Shown here: positions 1 to 6,095 of the stretch, piece by piece
Numbering within the stretch: the stretch's first letter is position 1
Layout of the letters: every line of letters begins with the position of its first letter
Virus record (IMG/VR): IMGVR_UViG_3300025154_001404
Location: 1 to 32,922 of that record
DNA length: 32,922 bases
From: a virus
Reading direction: 5' to 3' (one strand)
Made by a program: the position numbers and the translations under genes
Notes under the pieces: model-generated
What the model saw: the letters and a program-made list of their open reading frames with translations, nothing else
Told to the model about the DNA's origin: nothing
Databases searched by the model: none

Positions 1-219
1 GATTTCAAAAAGCTGAAGGATATGGTTGATGTTGATATCGTAAAGCATTTGGATCATAAAGACCTCAATACGCTTTTTGATAACCCCACTTCAGAGAACG
101 TGGTTACATGGATAGCAGATAAACTCAATACTACATTGGAAAATTCTGAAATAGTTCTTGAGAGAATCAGGTTCTGGGAAACTTCAACCTCATATACAGA
201 ATGGACAAAAGAAAGGTAG
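1..219 (+). CDS. queD: 6-carboxytetrahydropterin synthase QueD (C-terminal part, 5' end outside window)
   Basis: The frame is open from base 1 and begins DFKKLKDMVD, so the gene starts before the window. QueD converts 7,8-dihydroneopterin triphosphate to 6-carboxytetrahydropterin, the second step towards 7-deazaguanines. Seen here are the C-terminal hallmarks of the T-fold family: the DF-x-x-LK segment, LDHKDLN, the NPTSENV helix start and the terminal WETSTSYTEW segment, whose Glu binds the pterin. It is followed by a small ORF, then queE, and folE lies further down, which supports the assignment. No catalytic Cys or zinc His residues can be checked because they lie in the missing N-terminal part. 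Confidence 0.88.
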   Translation, partial: DFKKLKDMVDVDIVKHLDHKDLNTLFDNPTSENVVTWIADKLNTTLENSEIVLERIRFWETSTSYTEWTKER

Positions 220-223
220 AAAA

Positions 224-550
224 GTGTATGATAAAGAAGCTAATAAGGATCTATTCAGAGAGATGATTTTGTCTGCAATAACAGATTTGGATAAAGTATC
301 TACTACAGCAAAAAAACAAGAGATTGAAACAGATAGACAGTCAGCTTTCAAATGGTTTGAATCGAATAGTAATAGACCTGGTTCTTTTGTTTGGTGTTGT
401 CAGATACTAAGTGCTGATGAAGAGGCTTTAAGGAAAGTTATTTTTAACGAAGAGATGAGGAAGAAATTGAAGTTCAAACTAGAAACAGCGAACAGAGAGA
501 GAACAAAAAGAGGGGATGATGAAAACTCTGAAAGTGAAAGAGATTTTTAG
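224..550 (+). CDS. conserved phage protein of unknown function
   Basis: The protein is about 108 residues from a GTG start chosen because AAAGG lies 8 to 12 bases upstream; an ATG at 158 in the same frame lies deep inside queD and has no good ribosome site. The product begins VYDKEANKDLF. The middle (AFKWFESNSNRPGSFVWCCQ) followed by ILSADEEALR resembles a small phage family in which a Trp-containing helix precedes a LDPE-LR type segment, perhaps a helix-turn-helix, but this is only a resemblance. The C-terminus is highly charged. It lies between queD and queE and overlaps queE by about 32 bases, so it is co-expressed with the modification genes. Function unknown. Confidence 0.65.
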   Translation: MYDKEANKDLFREMILSAITDLDKVSTTAKKQEIETDRQSAFKWFESNSNRPGSFVWCCQILSADEEALRKVIFNEEMRKKLKFKLETANRERTKRGDDENSESERDF

Positions 551-1175
551 AAGTATAGAAGGTGAAGTGTGCAATACAGGACAAGGAAGAATCACAACAT
601 TTATTCGTTTGGCAGGGTGCAATTTGCGTTGTAGAGCTTGTGACACACCTGAAGCTCAGAGTTTTGCTTCAGGAACTGAAATGAATATTATTGATATTGT
701 AAAGGAGTGCAAGACAAAGAAAGTCACAATAACAGGTGGTGAGCCTCTTCTACAAGAAAACGTATTTGATCTGACCAGGGAACTGAATGTGGAGAAAAAG
801 ATTGTTTCGATTGAGACTAACGGAACAATTGCTGCTTTCGGTTACGGAGTAAATAGTTTTGTTGTGGATTATAAGCTACCTAGTTCAGGTATGGAAGACA
901 GAATGAATATGTTCAACTTCAATGGATTGCGACCGAGAGATTTTGTAAAGTTCGTTATAGGAACTGAGCTTGACTTGAAAAGAGCTATCGAAGTATACAG
1001 ACAGTTGAAAGATGGTCGTTTATGTCATGCTCAATTTGCTTTCTCCCCTCTCAACAAAATAAACCCTGATGATACTATAATAGGACATCACTACATACTC
1101 CGAGAGCTAGAAGCGCAAGGCATAAACGATTTTTATCTGAATATTCAAGTACATAAGCTCCTTGGTCTGAAATAG
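519..1175 (+). CDS. queE: 7-carboxy-7-deazaguanine synthase QueE (radical SAM)
   Basis: QueE is a radical-SAM enzyme that contracts 6-carboxytetrahydropterin to 7-carboxy-7-deazaguanine (CDG), forming the 7-deazapurine ring. The sequence shows the N-terminal KEIFRSIEGE element, FIRLAGCNLRCRACDTPEAQ with the three cluster cysteines in C-x3-C-x2-C spacing (about residues 34, 38 and 41), the TGGEPLLQ motif that contacts SAM, and IETNGT. Length of about 218 residues is normal for the family. ATG 519 is preferred to ATG 516 because AGAGGGG then has workable spacing; both are possible. With the partial queD and folE it forms the GTP-to-CDG pathway. No queC follows. Confidence 0.95.
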   Translation: MKTLKVKEIFRSIEGEVCNTGQGRITTFIRLAGCNLRCRACDTPEAQSFASGTEMNIIDIVKECKTKKVTITGGEPLLQENVFDLTRELNVEKKIVSIETNGTIAAFGYGVNSFVVDYKLPSSGMEDRMNMFNFNGLRPRDFVKFVIGTELDLKRAIEVYRQLKDGRLCHAQFAFSPLNKINPDDTIIGHHYILRELEAQGINDFYLNIQVHKLLGLK

Positions 1176-1207
1176 AGGTTTTTTTCTCAACCCTTTAACT
1201 TTTTCGC

Positions 1208-1237
1208 TTCACTTTTTAAAAAGTGTGCTAGTATAAT
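1208..1237 (+). promoter_or_regulatory. sigma70-like promoter with a palindrome in the spacer
   Basis: A perfect TATAAT at 1232-1237 has TTCACT (4 of 6 to consensus) 18 bases upstream at 1208-1213. Between and partly over the -35 box lies a perfect 16-base palindrome at 1210-1225 (CACTTTTTAAAAAGTG). It lies in the 131-base gap before the HU-like gene. The palindrome could be an operator; it lacks the GC-rich stem of a terminator. Promoter reading is by eye only. Confidence 0.55.
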
Positions 1238-1306
1238 AATAACAATCGAAATCAAGCAAGGTGCTTGAAGGGAGTAAAAAATCAAAACAATCAAGGAGAA
1301 ACAAGA

Positions 1307-1588
1307 ATGACAAAGGCAGATCTGATTGATGGTATCAGGAAGAACATTGAAGGGGTGAACAAGGACAAAGCAAAGGGGATCGTTGATTATATCTTCACTG
1401 AGATAAAGGTAAAGTTGATGCAAGGGGAAGAGGTTGCAATTCATGGGTTTGGGAAGTTCAAGATAGCTATTCGCCCTGTACGAACAGGACATAATCCCAG
1501 GACAGGGGAAGCACTTGAGATCCCTGAGTCAAAATTGATCAAGTTTAAAGCTGCCAGAGAAACCAAGAACGAACTGAACGACAAATAG
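1307..1588 (+). CDS. HU/IHF-family DNA-binding protein
   Basis: This is a 93-residue HU-type histone-like protein, a dimeric DNA-bending protein that coats or kinks DNA. It starts MTKADLIDGI, has the GFGKFKI turn and the beta-arm signature RTGHNPRTGE that inserts into the minor groove, and ends with KFKAAR, as in ordinary HU. The start at 1307 is set by AAGGAG about 10 bases upstream; an ATG at 1265 in frame adds residues not found in the family. It is the first gene behind a clear promoter. Phage HU proteins are known, for example TF1 of SPO1, which prefers the phage's own modified DNA; a similar role here is inference. Confidence 0.93.
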   Translation: MTKADLIDGIRKNIEGVNKDKAKGIVDYIFTEIKVKLMQGEEVAIHGFGKFKIAIRPVRTGHNPRTGEALEIPESKLIKFKAARETKNELNDK

Positions 1589-1596
1589 GAGATACA

Positions 1597-2253
1597 ATGA
1601 AAAAGTTGGAAGATATCAAGTCGAAGGAGCTGCAAACGGCAGCTAAAGCGATCAATGAAAGTGGGCTTCTCGGAGATGTGAAGATTCGCATAGTAGGAAC
1701 AGGCAAAGAAGCTTTGCTCAAGGTTTTCACTGAGAAGTTCGATAGTATTCTTTACAAAGAAGGATCTGATGATCCTGATCCCGTAGCAACAAAAGAACTT
1801 GCGGAGAAAGCAAAAGTCGCAGTAGATTTTTACAATGCTGTTTACTCAGATGAGGGCAACGAACCTGCTCCTGAACCAGAACCTGAAAAGAAAGAAGAGG
1901 CAAAGACCGAGGAGCCTAAGAAGAGAGGTCGTCCTAAGAAAGAGAAAGCGGAAGGAGACAAGCCTGCTGAACCGAAAGAGAAGAAACCTCGTGAGCGTAT
2001 GCCTATTCAGGACCTCCCTCGATCTCGATATGGCCATTTGATAGGAACTCAAGCAGCAGCGATTGACGATGCTCTTTGGGAAGGTGGAACTTTGGACGAA
2101 ATAGCAGAGAAATGTACCTGTAAGAAGTTTCGTATCCAGTCCCATCTCAAGCATATCAAAGATAAAAGACCTACTCTTACTCTCACAGAAACGAAAAAGA
2201 AAGTAGGAGAAGCCGAAGTATCTTTTTTTAAGATCGAACAAGAAAAAATGTAG
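1597..2253 (+). CDS. AT-hook, Lys/Glu/Pro-rich DNA-binding protein
   Basis: The 218-residue product has three visible parts. Residues 1-83 look like a compact alpha/beta domain. Residues 88-135 form a flexible Pro/Glu/Lys linker with an AT-hook (KKRGRPKK, about 108-115), which binds the minor groove of AT-rich DNA. Residues 140-190 have the pattern GTLDEIAEKCTCKKFRIQSH, like a small helix-turn-helix. It follows the HU-like gene by 8 bases and shares its promoter, then ends at a hairpin terminator, so the two form a bicistronic DNA-architecture unit. I recognise no named family for the full protein. A nucleoid-like or transcriptional role is inferred from the AT-hook and context. Confidence 0.82.
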   Translation: MKKLEDIKSKELQTAAKAINESGLLGDVKIRIVGTGKEALLKVFTEKFDSILYKEGSDDPDPVATKELAEKAKVAVDFYNAVYSDEGNEPAPEPEPEKKEEAKTEEPKKRGRPKKEKAEGDKPAEPKEKKPRERMPIQDLPRSRYGHLIGTQAAAIDDALWEGGTLDEIAEKCTCKKFRIQSHLKHIKDKRPTLTLTETKKKVGEAEVSFFKIEQEKM

Positions 2254-2262
2254 TTTCAATTT

Positions 2263-2301
2263 AAGATAGAGGCTTTCTTAGTATAGGTAAGCCTCTATCT
2301 T
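2263..2301 (+). terminator. intrinsic-type terminator after the HU/AT-hook operon
   Basis: A perfect 13-base-pair stem (arms 2263-2275 and 2289-2301, AAGATAGAGGCTT and its complement) encloses a 13-base loop and is followed by a T-rich stretch (TCCTTTGCTTTCC). It lies 10 bases after the stop codon at 2253 and before folE. The tail is not a pure T run, so termination may be partial. Confidence 0.7.
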
Positions 2302-2338
2302 CCTTTGCTTTCCGTTTCACTATTCTGTTGGAGAATAA

Positions 2339-2917
2339 ATGGATCAGAAACATGTCGAACATTGTATTCGATCTATGTTAGAAACAGGTTTGGATCTCAA
2401 TATTCACAATCCCAATTATAAAGATACTCCTAAGAGAATAGCTAAAATGTATTGCAAGGAGTTTCTTTGTAATTGTGATACAGAATTTGATGATTACGCC
2501 TGTTTTCCTAATGAGTATAACTATGATCAGATCATTTCATTTCCTAAGATAAGTTTCATTTCTATCTGCCCTCATCATTTTCTTCCTGTATCAGGATATG
2601 CTTGGTTCTTCTACATTCCGGATAGAGTGCTAATAGGAGCAAGCAAACCTGCTCGTTTGATTAAACATTATTCAAAACAACCTATTCTTCAAGAGTCGCT
2701 AGGAGAACTCATTCTTGACAGATTTGAAACTAATATACAGCCGCAAGGTTGTATGATCTACATAGATGCTGTCCACGGATGCATGGCACACAGAGGCATA
2801 GAAGAACCTGATTCGGGAATGATAACATCTGTGGTTAGAGGTTCTTTCAAAGAAATATCAGTCTTGGAAGAAAAGGCTATAAAAATGATTGAATTATCAT
2901 TAATGATGAGGAGATAA
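2339..2917 (+). CDS. folE: GTP cyclohydrolase I FolE
   Basis: FolE opens GTP to 7,8-dihydroneopterin triphosphate, the entry step for folate and for 7-deazaguanines. The 192-residue product keeps the family signature: SICPHHFLPVSGYAWFFYIP with zinc Cys77 and His80 and catalytic His79, VLIGASKPARLI, the QES helix start, and GCMAHRG with the third zinc ligand Cys148. The E that normally follows the first Cys (CEHH) is Pro here (CPHH). It starts after TTGGAGAATAA and sits downstream of a terminator. In this cluster with queD, queE and dpdA it most likely feeds DNA modification rather than folate. Confidence 0.95.
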   Translation: MDQKHVEHCIRSMLETGLDLNIHNPNYKDTPKRIAKMYCKEFLCNCDTEFDDYACFPNEYNYDQIISFPKISFISICPHHFLPVSGYAWFFYIPDRVLIGASKPARLIKHYSKQPILQESLGELILDRFETNIQPQGCMIYIDAVHGCMAHRGIEEPDSGMITSVVRGSFKEISVLEEKAIKMIELSLMMRR

Positions 2918-2921
2918 GAAG

Positions 2922-3374
2922 ATGCAACTATTCATAGGAAATGAAGCAGAGGGTCCTGATAAAGGAGCTCTTACTTTATTCATCGGGTCTAAAGATGTAG
3001 GCAACAATGAGATCTTGAAAATCCTGAGTGAAAACCCTGAGATAAAACGAGTCTATTTCGGAGCAAACAATAACCAAGGCATTTCTGATATTAATGTTGA
3101 ATTGCTTGAGCATCTAACAAAAGAATCAGAGGTTGTTATAGAAATAAACAATCCTGAGCAATATGCAAAGATATGGGATAATCTTGCATATATGCAACCT
3201 GATAATATAAAAGTAGTTCTTACTTTGCCGGTTGCTTTTGATTTTGATTTTATGGGATGTTTTGATATCAAATTGGTAAATGAAAAGAAAGAGGTAGTCT
3301 GGTTTGAGATGAAAAGCAAATATTTTACAGAACCTGACGATATTTTATACAAAACAGATAAGGAGGTTGTATGA
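2922..3374 (+). CDS. unknown protein, possible cluster-less radical-SAM-like relative
   Basis: The 150-residue product is coupled to folE (4-base gap, GAGGAGATAAG upstream) and overlaps the glycosyltransferase by ATGA. I do not recognise it. Its order of elements resembles that of QueE in the same window: a GALTLFIG strand where QueE has TTFIRLAG, a KRVYFGANNN segment where QueE has KVTITGGEPL, NVELLEHL where QueE has NVFDLTREL, and VVIEIN where QueE has VSIETN. The cluster-binding cysteine triad is absent, with a single Cys near residue 106. If the likeness is real it is a degenerate half-barrel without radical chemistry. Otherwise it is a protein of unknown function. Confidence 0.6.
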   Translation: MQLFIGNEAEGPDKGALTLFIGSKDVGNNEILKILSENPEIKRVYFGANNNQGISDINVELLEHLTKESEVVIEINNPEQYAKIWDNLAYMQPDNIKVVLTLPVAFDFDFMGCFDIKLVNEKKEVVWFEMKSKYFTEPDDILYKTDKEVV

Positions 3375-4510
3375 GAAAGTTATGGTATTTTCCTTTAGAA
3401 CCTTATCGTTCTCGATATACTTGTCAGTTGTCGAAGGAAAAAGAGGGATGGTTAGAGTCAAGATGGAATCAAATAGGTTTAAATTATGAAAGAATAGAAG
3501 GAGCAAGCCTAAATGATGATATAAGATCAGGTAGCGTTTTAGATGCTTGCGGTCGAGGTTATTGGTCATGTAGTCAAATTCAGAATTTTCTAAGGAAATT
3601 AAATGAGGGAGAAATAAGCTCAGATGATTGTATTTATCTTGATGATTTTTGGACGCCGGGTATAGAAGCTCTTCCCTACGCTTTTCATCTAACAGGTATT
3701 AAACCTAAAATATTTGCCATGCTCCATGCCCAAACTGTTGACATTTATGATTTTACATACCCTATGAGAAAATGGATGCGACACTTTGAAGTAGGGCAAG
3801 GCAATTTCTTTGATGGCATATTTGTAACCAGCACCTGTCTGAGAGATCTATGCTTGTATGCAGGCGTAGGGAGTGAAGAAACAGTACATATCACGGGTTT
3901 GCCTTACAATAGTGATGAAGTTAGAACTCACTTTCCTGGCACACTTCCGAAAAAGAAGAATCAAATAATTTTCACTTCGAGGTGGGATGAAGAAAAAGAT
4001 CCTTTGTTCTTTCTTTCCGTTGTTGATGAAATACTCGAATCAGGAAATGACTACATCAATTTCTTAGTGACCACATCCTCCCCTGAACTACGATCTAACA
4101 ACCCTGAGCTTATTGACAAGGTGTATCGCTACAAAGATAAGTATCCTGATAACTTTGATATCAAAATCAATCTCACAAAAGAGGAATATTACCACAATCT
4201 GTTGGAATCAAAAATTCAATTCAATTGCGCCCATCAGGACTTTGTAAGCTGGACTTTACTAGAAGCAACAACTTGTGGTTGCATTCCTGTGTATCCTAAC
4301 TACCTTAGTTTCCCTGAAGCTTTGCAATATGCCTACGATATGATGTATGTAAAAAACGATGTTCAATCCGCTGCGAATAAGATACTTCAGGAGATCAATT
4401 TCGGAGGAATCAAGTATGTTGATTGGATTTACCTTCCCTATGATTACAGTTGGTTGAGAATGTTGAATGTTATGCAAGGAACACAACAGTACCCCAAAAA
4501 GGATTGGTAG
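3371..4510 (+). CDS. GT-B fold glycosyltransferase
   Basis: The 379-residue protein looks like a GT4-type (GT-B) glycosyltransferase. The C-terminal half has FTSRWDEEKDP (about 201-211), a classic opening of the nucleotide-sugar domain, and a region from Glu298 to Glu316 (LLEATTCGCIPVYPN, then SFPEA) matching the E-x-n-E donor-binding motif and the 'E-A-x-x-x-G-x-P-V' pattern. The N-terminal half (1-190) is divergent and presumably binds the acceptor. ATG 3371 has AAGGAGG upstream. It lies inside the 7-deazaguanine block between folE and the QueD-like/dpdA pair. A DNA-base or protein acceptor is possible; which is not shown by the sequence. Confidence 0.82.
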   Translation: MRKLWYFPLEPYRSRYTCQLSKEKEGWLESRWNQIGLNYERIEGASLNDDIRSGSVLDACGRGYWSCSQIQNFLRKLNEGEISSDDCIYLDDFWTPGIEALPYAFHLTGIKPKIFAMLHAQTVDIYDFTYPMRKWMRHFEVGQGNFFDGIFVTSTCLRDLCLYAGVGSEETVHITGLPYNSDEVRTHFPGTLPKKKNQIIFTSRWDEEKDPLFFLSVVDEILESGNDYINFLVTTSSPELRSNNPELIDKVYRYKDKYPDNFDIKINLTKEEYYHNLLESKIQFNCAHQDFVSWTLLEATTCGCIPVYPNYLSFPEALQYAYDMMYVKNDVQSAANKILQEINFGGIKYVDWIYLPYDYSWLRMLNVMQGTQQYPKKDW

Positions 4511-4511
4511 A

Positions 4512-4847
4512 ATGAAAATTTATGTGTGGTTAACAACTCAGTTTGAAGGGTACCATAATTGGCCTGATGCTCCTGTTCATTTGTCTTTTTTACGTTCTAC
4601 CCATAGGCATATCTTTCATGTGAAGATGTTGTTTGAGGTATCGCATAGCGATAGGGATATTGAGTTTATCGAAACTAAATGGAAGGTAGAAGATTACATA
4701 AAAAACAGATGGGATTCATCTCAAGCTCGTCCTCGCACAGGAGTTTCGTGTGAGATGATAGCTGAAGATTTGCTTGAGCATTTTGATGCTTTCAGGGTTG
4801 AGATATCTGAAGATGGTGAAAACGGTGCGATAGTAGAAAGAGGATGA
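4512..4847 (+). CDS. QueD-like T-fold protein next to dpdA
   Basis: The 111-residue protein starts at ATG 4512, just after the glycosyltransferase stop; an upstream in-frame ATG at 4467 lies inside that gene. It resembles the QueD/6-pyruvoyl-tetrahydropterin synthase fold: THRHIFHVKMLFEV parallels the H-x-H zinc strand of QueD, DRDIEFIETK parallels the 'MVMDFGDLK' region, VSCEMIAEDL parallels PTSENVVTWI, and VEISEDGENGA parallels the terminal WETSTSY strand. The pterin-binding Glu is placed in a different setting (SEDGEN). It ends one base before dpdA, so the two are tightly coupled. It may bind or process a 7-deazaguanine intermediate; a decarboxylase of the DpdL type is one option I cannot confirm. 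Confidence 0.75.
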   Translation: MKIYVWLTTQFEGYHNWPDAPVHLSFLRSTHRHIFHVKMLFEVSHSDRDIEFIETKWKVEDYIKNRWDSSQARPRTGVSCEMIAEDLLEHFDAFRVEISEDGENGAIVERG

Positions 4848-4848
4848 T

Positions 4849-5730
4849 ATGAAATGTTTTCTTGATTCAGGCGCTCACTCTTTGTATGAGCGTGTAATGA
4901 AAAGTCTGCATAAAGGATCAAAAAGAAAAGGAGATATTGATTATTCTTATGTAGAAACAAAAGAGTTTTGGAAATATGTTGATGACTATGCCGAATTCAT
5001 AAAACAAAATTTTGATCATATTGATATCTATGTCAATGTGGACGTTATTTTCAATGGGGAAGCTTCTTGGCGAGTTCAAGAATATCTTGAGAAAGAACAC
5101 GGATTGTCACCTCTGCCTGTATTTCATCCAAAAGAAGATTTCAAATGGTTAAGAAAGTATATGGATAAGTATGAGTACATAGGAATAGGCGGGTTAGGTC
5201 AGGACATGACAAAATCGGATTACTATGATTTTGCAGATAAAGTATTCGGAATGCTTTGTGATTATCCTGATTGTTTGCCTAGATGGAAGACTCACGGATT
5301 TGCTATGACCTCTCCCGATCTGTTATATAAATATCCCTTCTTCTCTGTCGATAGCACAAGTTGGGTTCAATTTGGTAGATATGGGATTATCTTATTTCCT
5401 AAACAAGGCAGATATGATAGATCCCCTTACACAATCAAAGTATCCACTAAATCCCCATCTCTTGAAAAAGCAGATAAACACCTACAAACTATGTCTGTAA
5501 CAGAACGTGAGTATTTGGAAGAAGTTATCAGTGGAGAAGGTTTTACACTAGGCAAGAGTCATTTTGAAAATGGAAAGGAGGTTGTAGAAGAACCGGGTTT
5601 GAGCAATGATTGTTCTGTAAGAGATAAGTGGAATATGCTTTTCTTTCTCAGAATGGAACAAGCTTTACCTAAATGGCCTTGGGCTTTCAAACACAAAAAA
5701 GGAATATTTACAGGCGCTTTTGACTTATGA
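4849..5730 (+). CDS. dpdA: phage DpdA: 7-deazaguanine DNA transglycosylase (TGT-like)
   Basis: The 293-residue product matches the phage DpdA branch of the tRNA-guanine transglycosylase family, which exchanges guanine in DNA for a free 7-deazaguanine base. Seen are FLDSGAHS (residues 4-11; Asp6 corresponds to the Asp of DSGGFQ in TGT), YVNVDVI, PVFHP, YIGIGGLG (about 110-117, the GGLAVGE equivalent), HGFAMTS and FSVDSTSW (Asp168 region, the likely nucleophile). The C-x-C-x2-C zinc site of bacterial TGT is absent, which fits DpdA and not a tRNA enzyme. It follows the QueD-like gene by one base. Without queC the base it inserts is uncertain. Confidence 0.9.
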   Translation: MKCFLDSGAHSLYERVMKSLHKGSKRKGDIDYSYVETKEFWKYVDDYAEFIKQNFDHIDIYVNVDVIFNGEASWRVQEYLEKEHGLSPLPVFHPKEDFKWLRKYMDKYEYIGIGGLGQDMTKSDYYDFADKVFGMLCDYPDCLPRWKTHGFAMTSPDLLYKYPFFSVDSTSWVQFGRYGIILFPKQGRYDRSPYTIKVSTKSPSLEKADKHLQTMSVTEREYLEEVISGEGFTLGKSHFENGKEVVEEPGLSNDCSVRDKWNMLFFLRMEQALPKWPWAFKHKKGIFTGAFDL

Positions 5731-5741
5731 GAGGAGATATT

Positions 5742-6095
5742 ATGAAAGTTGTAATTGCAGGAAGCAGAACAGCCAGGTACGCCGATGTAATTGAAGCTGT
5801 CGATTGGTCAGGTACAGGTCGAAATATCACAGAAGTTGTATGTGGTATGGCAAGGGGTGCAGACTCTCATGGGAAGGAATGGGCGCAACGCAACAATATC
5901 TCTGTAAAAGAGTTTCCTGCTGATTGGGATAAATATGGTAAATCAGCAGGCTTTATACGAAATAAAGAAATGGCAGAGTACGCAGACGCAGCTATAGTTT
6001 GTTGGGATGGCAAATCTCGAGGCTCTGTCAATATGATTGAGGAGATGAAAAGGTTAGGTAAGCCTGTTTTTGTCTGGCAATTTAAACCTCACTAA
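5742..6095 (+). CDS. SLOG-domain protein (YspA/DUF2493 type)
   Basis: The 117-residue product begins MKVVIAGSRTARY and continues with GMARGADSHGKEWAQ, KEFPADWDKYGKSAGFIRN and a final GKSRGSVNMIEEMKRLGKPV, which is the Rossmann-like SLOG pattern of the YspA/DUF2493 group. The related LOG enzymes cleave nucleotide monophosphates to the free base, while other SLOG domains only sense nucleotides; the activity here is unknown. ATG 5742 is chosen since GAGGAG is well placed; an ATG at 5727 overlaps the dpdA stop. Coupling to dpdA suggests a role with nucleotides or bases in the modification pathway, but this is inference. Confidence 0.82.
   Translation: MKVVIAGSRTARYADVIEAVDWSGTGRNITEVVCGMARGADSHGKEWAQRNNISVKEFPADWDKYGKSAGFIRNKEMAEYADAAIVCWDGKSRGSVNMIEEMKRLGKPVFVWQFKPH

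Follow-up and report, generated by a model that had tools for sequence, protein, structure and literature searches.

The window analysed here is a 32,922-base virus record from IMG/VR (IMGVR_UViG_3300025154_001404), and its first 5,730 bases carry a block of plus-strand genes with the order queD-queE-folE-U150-GT-Tf-dpdA. With reasonable probability, these genes form a cassette for 7-deazaguanine hypermodification of DNA that lacks queC and includes a glycosylation branch. A broader proposal, which we hold with slightly more doubt than confidence, is that DNA containing a glycosylated 7-deazaguanine occurs in many phages, whose genomes range from ~50 kb to the >280 kb of jumbo phages; the base would perhaps be mannosylated, possibly through a carbon-carbon bond at C7. 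This base would be made by a QueD-derived T-fold enzyme (Tf) that replaces QueC, by one of three interchangeable transglycosylases, and by a phage glycosyltransferase (GT) from whose relatives QTMAN, the enzyme that mannosylates queuosine (a 7-deazaguanine) in tRNA, may descend.

A DpdA cassette without QueC

FolE, QueD, QueE and DpdA, which together define DpdA-dependent 7-deazaguanine DNA modification, are all encoded in the block. The first three belong to families that make 7-carboxy-7-deazaguanine (CDG) from GTP, and DpdA belongs to a family that exchanges guanine in DNA. Profile searches bore out these assignments, which had been made in an earlier, sequence-only reading of the window. 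FolE (GTP cyclohydrolase I; 2339-2917, PF01227 1.4e-39) has intact CPHH and CMAHRG motifs, as QueE (CDG synthase; 516-1175, phrog_2076 4.8e-33, Radical_SAM 1.4e-11) has its Cys motif GCNLRCRACD. Only the 3' 72 codons of queD, the gene for 6-carboxy-tetrahydropterin synthase, lie in the window (1-219; PF01242 (PTPS) 1.6e-10 on the fragment); the complete gene, with its Zn, Cys and Asp-His motifs, is found in a longer parent contig (locus L007, 6478-6849; PTPS 2.4e-30). The dpdA gene (4849-5730; phrog_887 6.6e-41) encodes a TGT-family DNA transglycosylase that has the catalytic Asp (D6, D168) and no tRNA-type zinc site. Neither this protein nor any of 61 aligned relatives has the zinc motif CxCxxC, and D6, D65, H149 and D168 are invariant across the alignment.

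The parent contig (IMGVR_UViG_3300025154_000129, 53,908 bases) holds the whole window with 100% identity at 16517-49438 (window orientation) and extends it upstream by 16.5 kb. The sequence-only reading had noted that queC was missing and had pointed to the DNA left of base 1 as a place where it might lie. No queC is present in these 16.5 kb, and a profile search for QueC (PF06508) found none in the window or in the 53.9 kb contig, both of which are incomplete. Neither contig encodes QueC or Gat-QueC, one of which the preQ0/G+ branch would call for. Since neither showed a recognisable capsid or terminase gene, both contigs look incomplete, the window at both ends, and a queC elsewhere in the genome is not strictly excluded.

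Among relatives, we observed the same absence. All 12 complete phage records with Tf have no true QueC, and six QueC-bearing DpdA phages are without Tf (Fisher p 5e-5, for groups picked by Tf or DpdA similarity). Tf was present in 20 of 20 records without a true QueC, eight of which (the window, its parent contig and G002-G007) were not selected by Tf; six relatives found via DpdA or GT alone likewise have Tf and lack QueC. Within 10 kb, QueC was not found in any of 209 loci, 49 of them fetched by GT and 160 by Tf. Two QueC-like matches were rejected: that in Xanthomonas phage X1 has a weak score and looks by eye like NAD synthetase (SGGVDS), and that in Vibrio phage D479 (L247), which carries Tf, is also weak and represents a divergent QueC-family protein without SGGxDS. 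Since the absence of queC is the rule among relatives, the final base probably differs from preQ0 or G+. The sequence-only reading had raised this idea and had looked to extra enzymes in the same block, and to that extent it probably stands. However, it had overlooked Tf and GT, two conserved cassette enzymes, and so its account ended at CDG or a decarboxylated base; the evidence leads beyond that, to a glycosylated 7-deazaguanine.

Tf, a QueD paralogue that may act in the place of QueC

Tf (phrog_17812, 1e-26) is encoded at 4512-4847, with 4512 as the likely start, in an open reading frame (ORF) that is open from 4467 (126 aa). An alignment of 18 Tf sequences shows invariant H15, H31, H33, R48, E51, S79-C80-E81 and E100. 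Comparison with phage QueD profiles using hhalign gave a match of 94.6% (E 6.5e-8) over nearly the full length, and the best solved match is the PTPS-like protein PH0634 (E 0.017, weak). In the alignment of Tf with QueD, HRH falls on HGH, SCE on PTSE, and the glutamate of EDGENGA on that of ET. The metal-binding histidine triad of QueD is thus represented by the invariant H15, H31 and H33, and the profile match points to a T-fold. Both the catalytic Cys before HGH and the Asp-His dyad (LDHxxLN) are missing from Tf in the alignments, which rules out the ORF at 4467-4847 as QueD proper. Because the histidines are kept and the Cys and the dyad are missing, we read Tf as a QueD paralogue that has retained the metal site and lost QueD chemistry. 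From its residues and its mutual exclusion with QueC, we infer that Tf may act on CDG where QueC otherwise would. With the >590 Tf matches that one scan listed among viral contigs, the gene set seems to be widespread.

Linkage of the cassette genes and alternative transglycosylases

In 49 viral loci fetched by the GT sequence alone, many of which are cut by contig ends, we found DpdA in 47, Tf in 44, FolE in 40, QueE and QueD in 34 each, and QueC in none. GT was present in 76/80 and 58/80 loci fetched by Tf (134/160 in all). In all 178 loci that have both, Tf and GT share a strand, and in 172 they are <3 kb apart. These loci are partly non-independent, some contigs having been fetched by more than one scan, and 181 distinct Tf sequences were counted. 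The linkage is far beyond chance. A frequent order among the loci is queD-queE-folE-Tf-GT-dpdA, and many cassettes adjoin replication genes.

The 178 loci differ in their transglycosylase: 102 have a protein of ~510 aa (p510), 63 have a DpdA resembling that of the window, five have phrog_10773 (p10773) and eight have none, and two of the families were never found together. Among the TGT motifs present in p510 and phrog_10773 are DSGG and the later Asp, and the joint profile of the two families matches solved queuine tRNA-ribosyltransferases (best E 0.0044). CxCxxC is present in one of 115 p510/p10773 proteins, and hhalign showed no link between these proteins and DpdA. These data suggest that DNA transglycosylases have gone unrecognised in p510 and phrog_10773, which together with DpdA would then be three interchangeable transglycosylases of the Tf and GT cassette. 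A tree of DpdA subfamilies, which the sequence-only reading had proposed, places the window DpdA among other GT-linked DpdAs, in a clade that adjoins DpdA1 and is split from the DpdAs of QueC phages by a branch with SH-aLRT 100.

Among cultured phages, the cassette occurs in Synechococcus phage BUCT-ZZ01, ACP17, Phosso, Xanthomonas phage X1 and the group of PA5oct, Paride and Callisto; in PA5oct-type phages, the transglycosylase found with GT and Tf is of the p510 type. In phage X1, a PAPS-reductase-family protein (L014 6338-6871) lies within the cassette and adjoins folE. The PA5oct genome was sized at ~375 kb by pulsed-field gel (PMC3936114), compared to 286.8 kb for its sequence (NC_071039, L016), a gap that might reflect heavy DNA modification or terminal redundancy. 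Compact operons of the same genes are found on bacterial contigs (L248, L249 and L251), with the order Tf-U150-GT-dpdA-queD-queE-folE in L248. We also observed GT, Tf, p510 and QueD on Magnetospirillum contigs (L254 and L256), one of which is 1.4 Mb long. Since the cassette sits inside these bacterial contigs, prophages carrying it probably exist.

The glycosyltransferase and its kinship to QTMAN

GT (3371-4510, 379 aa) is a GT-B/GT4 glycosyltransferase. PF00534 was found in 12 of 12 family members, and the AlphaFold2 model (pLDDT 93.4) has GT-B structural matches with Z up to 27.9 (MshA, BshA and others). The QTMAN_N domain PF12038 had no match in any of the 12 members, and GT is for that reason best described as a relative of QTMAN and not as QTMAN proper.

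Sequence motifs had hinted at this kinship, and we assessed it by running the GT profile (A9) over 694 bacterial genomes from two phyla (398 and 296). PF12038 scored above the cut-off in 27 of the 398. In the first phylum, the top match is a copy of the module in G009 (5.8e-47), followed by the C-terminal halves of these PF12038-marked QTMAN genes to 3e-12, with a contig-edge fragment in G280 as the one exception; other GT4s start at 4e-8. In the second, a module copy in G011 is followed by ~90 QTMAN genes to 2e-14, and other GT4s start at 9e-11. By profile score, QTMAN genes are almost exclusively the nearest non-phage relatives of GT in these genomes. A tree of the C-terminal domain likewise unites QTMAN with the phage GTs to the exclusion of the closest generic GT4s (support 93/74), with QTMAN nested inside the phage GT diversity. 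Both the scans and the tree thus assign GT a C-terminal GT4 domain of the QTMAN kind.

Since the donor-binding domain is the part shared with QTMAN, GDP-mannose is our first guess for the donor. A cupin gene upstream of queD (L007 6101-6481, ~150-530 bases left of window base 1; PHROG 7851, Cupin_2 3.3e-14, MannoseP_isomer 2.1e-10) would fit a mannose donor, although it is rare in relatives. It overlaps the queD start by ATGA and resembles the C-terminal domain of mannose-6-phosphate isomerase. Phage relatives of this cupin sit in nucleotide-sugar/heptose clusters of cyanophages. Separately, a related GT in Xanthomonas phage PhiXhv-15 (L024 3618-6852) adjoins genes for a glucosamine-fructose-6-phosphate aminotransferase and a GlcNAc-malate deacetylase-like protein; the stretch has no annotated deazaguanine genes and perhaps belongs to another glycosylated-base pathway or to a bacillithiol-like one.

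U150 and radical-SAM proteins upstream of GT

The conserved 150-aa protein U150 (2922-3374) shares its family with a protein of 170-180 aa that occurs in 91 loci. Its AF2 model has a pLDDT of 77, and neither a fold search (E<=0.001) nor a sequence search (E<=5) returned a PDB match. U150 was rejected as a cysteine-less QueE paralogue, as hhalign scores against QueE, radical-SAM proteins and DpdA were all <=2%. Two radical-SAM proteins are found repeatedly in cassettes with GT (L132 1371-2711 and L150 8911-9837), and the ~450-aa one lies, like U150, just upstream of GT. U150 was found alone in 84 loci and the ~450-aa protein alone in 31, and they occur together in one. That they almost never co-occur suggests that they are alternative enzymes for one step.

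Proposed pathway and alternative explanations

In the pathway that we propose, FolE, QueD and QueE would convert GTP to CDG, which Tf would process or deliver in QueC's place, with decarboxylation as one candidate reaction. To judge by its family and position, DpdA would put the resulting base into DNA in exchange for guanine, and GT would transfer a sugar to the 7-deazaguanine, probably after its insertion into DNA. More speculatively, U150, or the radical-SAM protein at the same place in sister phages, may prepare the acceptor. The sugar could be attached as an ester to the carboxylate of CDG, as a C-glycoside at C7, or through a hydroxymethyl group supplied by Tf, U150 or the radical-SAM protein. 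The bulky base would shield virion DNA from restriction.

Several points weigh against this pathway. DNA modification is predicted here from gene content, and publications on PA5oct-type phages do not mention it; in the literature on PA5oct, MIJ3, Paride and Callisto we found no restriction data. CDG and 7-deazaguanine have no free sugar-type hydroxyl, which leaves the acceptor unexplained, and host QueC could act on CDG. As for the kinship of GT, PF12038 is missing, support for the clade with QTMAN is moderate and long branches meet there, and profile-profile comparison with hhalign gave no separation between QTMAN (149) and the closest generic GT4s (150). Finally, no GT was seen adjoining Tf in phiST, MA9V-3, D479, I1_18, Ahp1 and Bakedbeans, and Tf therefore does not need GT.

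Such GT-free versions are what one would expect if the DNA held plain CDG or a decarboxylated 7-deazaguanine, with Tf as a CDG decarboxylase and GT directed at a virion protein or the host surface. A 2023 NAR paper by Cui et al. is said to report dCDG, dDG and a predicted decarboxylase, DpdL, which we count in favour of this explanation. CDG in a queC-less phage has also been foreseen in the literature (PMC6884629). However, 170 loci show tight, same-direction linkage of GT with Tf and one of the three transglycosylases, and the nearest cellular kin of GT glycosylates a 7-deazaguanine, so that we consider a plain base unlikely, if deserving of some weight. If instead host QueC turned phage CDG into preQ0 and the phage inserted dPreQ0, the missing queC would reflect host dependence. 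Most bacteria have QueC (12/14 control rings), and supply of precursors by the host has been discussed (PMC6884629), but the presence of Tf where QueC is missing would be left unexplained, as would GT, and we regard this scenario as very improbable.

The target could also be tRNA, into which the TGT-family enzyme would insert a 7-deazaguanine for mannosylation by a QTMAN-like enzyme, as in glycosylated queuosine. QTMAN itself acts on tRNA and all the enzymes come from queuosine superfamilies, yet the tRNA-type CxCxxC motif is absent from the 61 aligned DpdAs and nearly so from p510/p10773 proteins, many cassettes adjoin replication genes, and the DpdA1 family has been shown to modify DNA (PMC6884629). 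We therefore find remodelling of tRNA decidedly improbable. Hardly credible to us is a glycosylated pterin, made by FolE, QueD/Tf and GT with no link to DNA, in the manner of the cyanobacterial tetrahydrobiopterin glucosyltransferase. FolE and T-fold proteins are indeed pterin enzymes, and that glucosyltransferase (9v0l) is among the structural matches of GT with Z 24.4, but many other GT-B folds score equal or higher. Moreover, the cassette nearly always contains a transglycosylase and usually QueE, neither of which has a known role with pterin glycosides.

Other genes of the window and parent contig

Two further plus-strand genes lie within or beside the block. An HU/IHF-like DNA-binding protein (1265-1588; PF00216 3.5e-26) is encoded within it and outside the conserved core. 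Directly downstream, the start of a gene for a SLOG-family protein (YspA/cpYpsA-related; 5727-6095, PF10686 5.7e-12) overlaps the dpdA stop; this gene is not among the most conserved neighbour families of the cassette. In the parent contig (G001), two copies of a gene that contains the short repeated motif LQGQSVTRLSM lie at ~1.5-2.0 and 3.4-4.1 kb (window orientation), in a region where several reading frames are open on both strands.

Relation to known systems and significance

The predicted product combines features of several known systems. To our knowledge, the 7-deazaguanine bases known from phages carry only small groups at position 7. As in the DpdA-type systems of phages 9g and CAjan (Hutinet et al. 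2019, PMC6884629), FolE, QueD, QueE and a zinc-less TGT-family transglycosylase are encoded in one block near replication genes. In contrast to those systems, the window cassette has Tf and GT instead of QueC, and its DpdA falls in a separate clade. A pathway ending at CDG would be shared with the dCDG/dDG phages that Cui et al. reportedly described in 2023; unlike in those phages, GT and U150 or a radical-SAM protein are added here, and the predicted product is glycosylated. Tf, which occurs in Cellulophaga phage phiST, might be what was named DpdL; a literature search lacking most subscription papers and that of Cui et al. found nothing relevant on DpdL. The C-terminal donor-binding domain of QTMAN (PF12038 plus a GT4 domain) is the nearest non-phage relative of phage GT, and the known substrate of QTMAN is a 7-deazaguanine in nucleic acid. 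Unlike QTMAN, phage GT has no detected PF12038, and its predicted target is a DNA base without the cyclopentenediol. As with the glucosylated hydroxymethylcytosine of T4, a GT-B enzyme would add a sugar to a DNA base after replication; the base and the pathway differ, with base exchange by a transglycosylase here and synthesis of a modified dNTP in T4.

In a literature search that lacked most subscription papers and Cui et al. 2023, we found no description of a glycosylated 7-deazaguanine in DNA. CDG in a queC-less phage has already been proposed for Mycobacterium phage Bipper (PMC6884629). Provisionally, then, the glycosylation branch is new, and CDG in a queC-less phage is an idea already in print.

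If the proposal is true, a sugar at position 7 would join two separate phage DNA defences, base exchange and glycosylation, and would armour DNA against bacterial restriction enzymes in a new way; the gene set behind it is shared by many phages that are unrelated to one another. The proposal would assign roles that can be tested to phrog_17812 and several 'hypothetical proteins', and would connect phage DNA modification in evolution to the glycosylated queuosine of tRNA.

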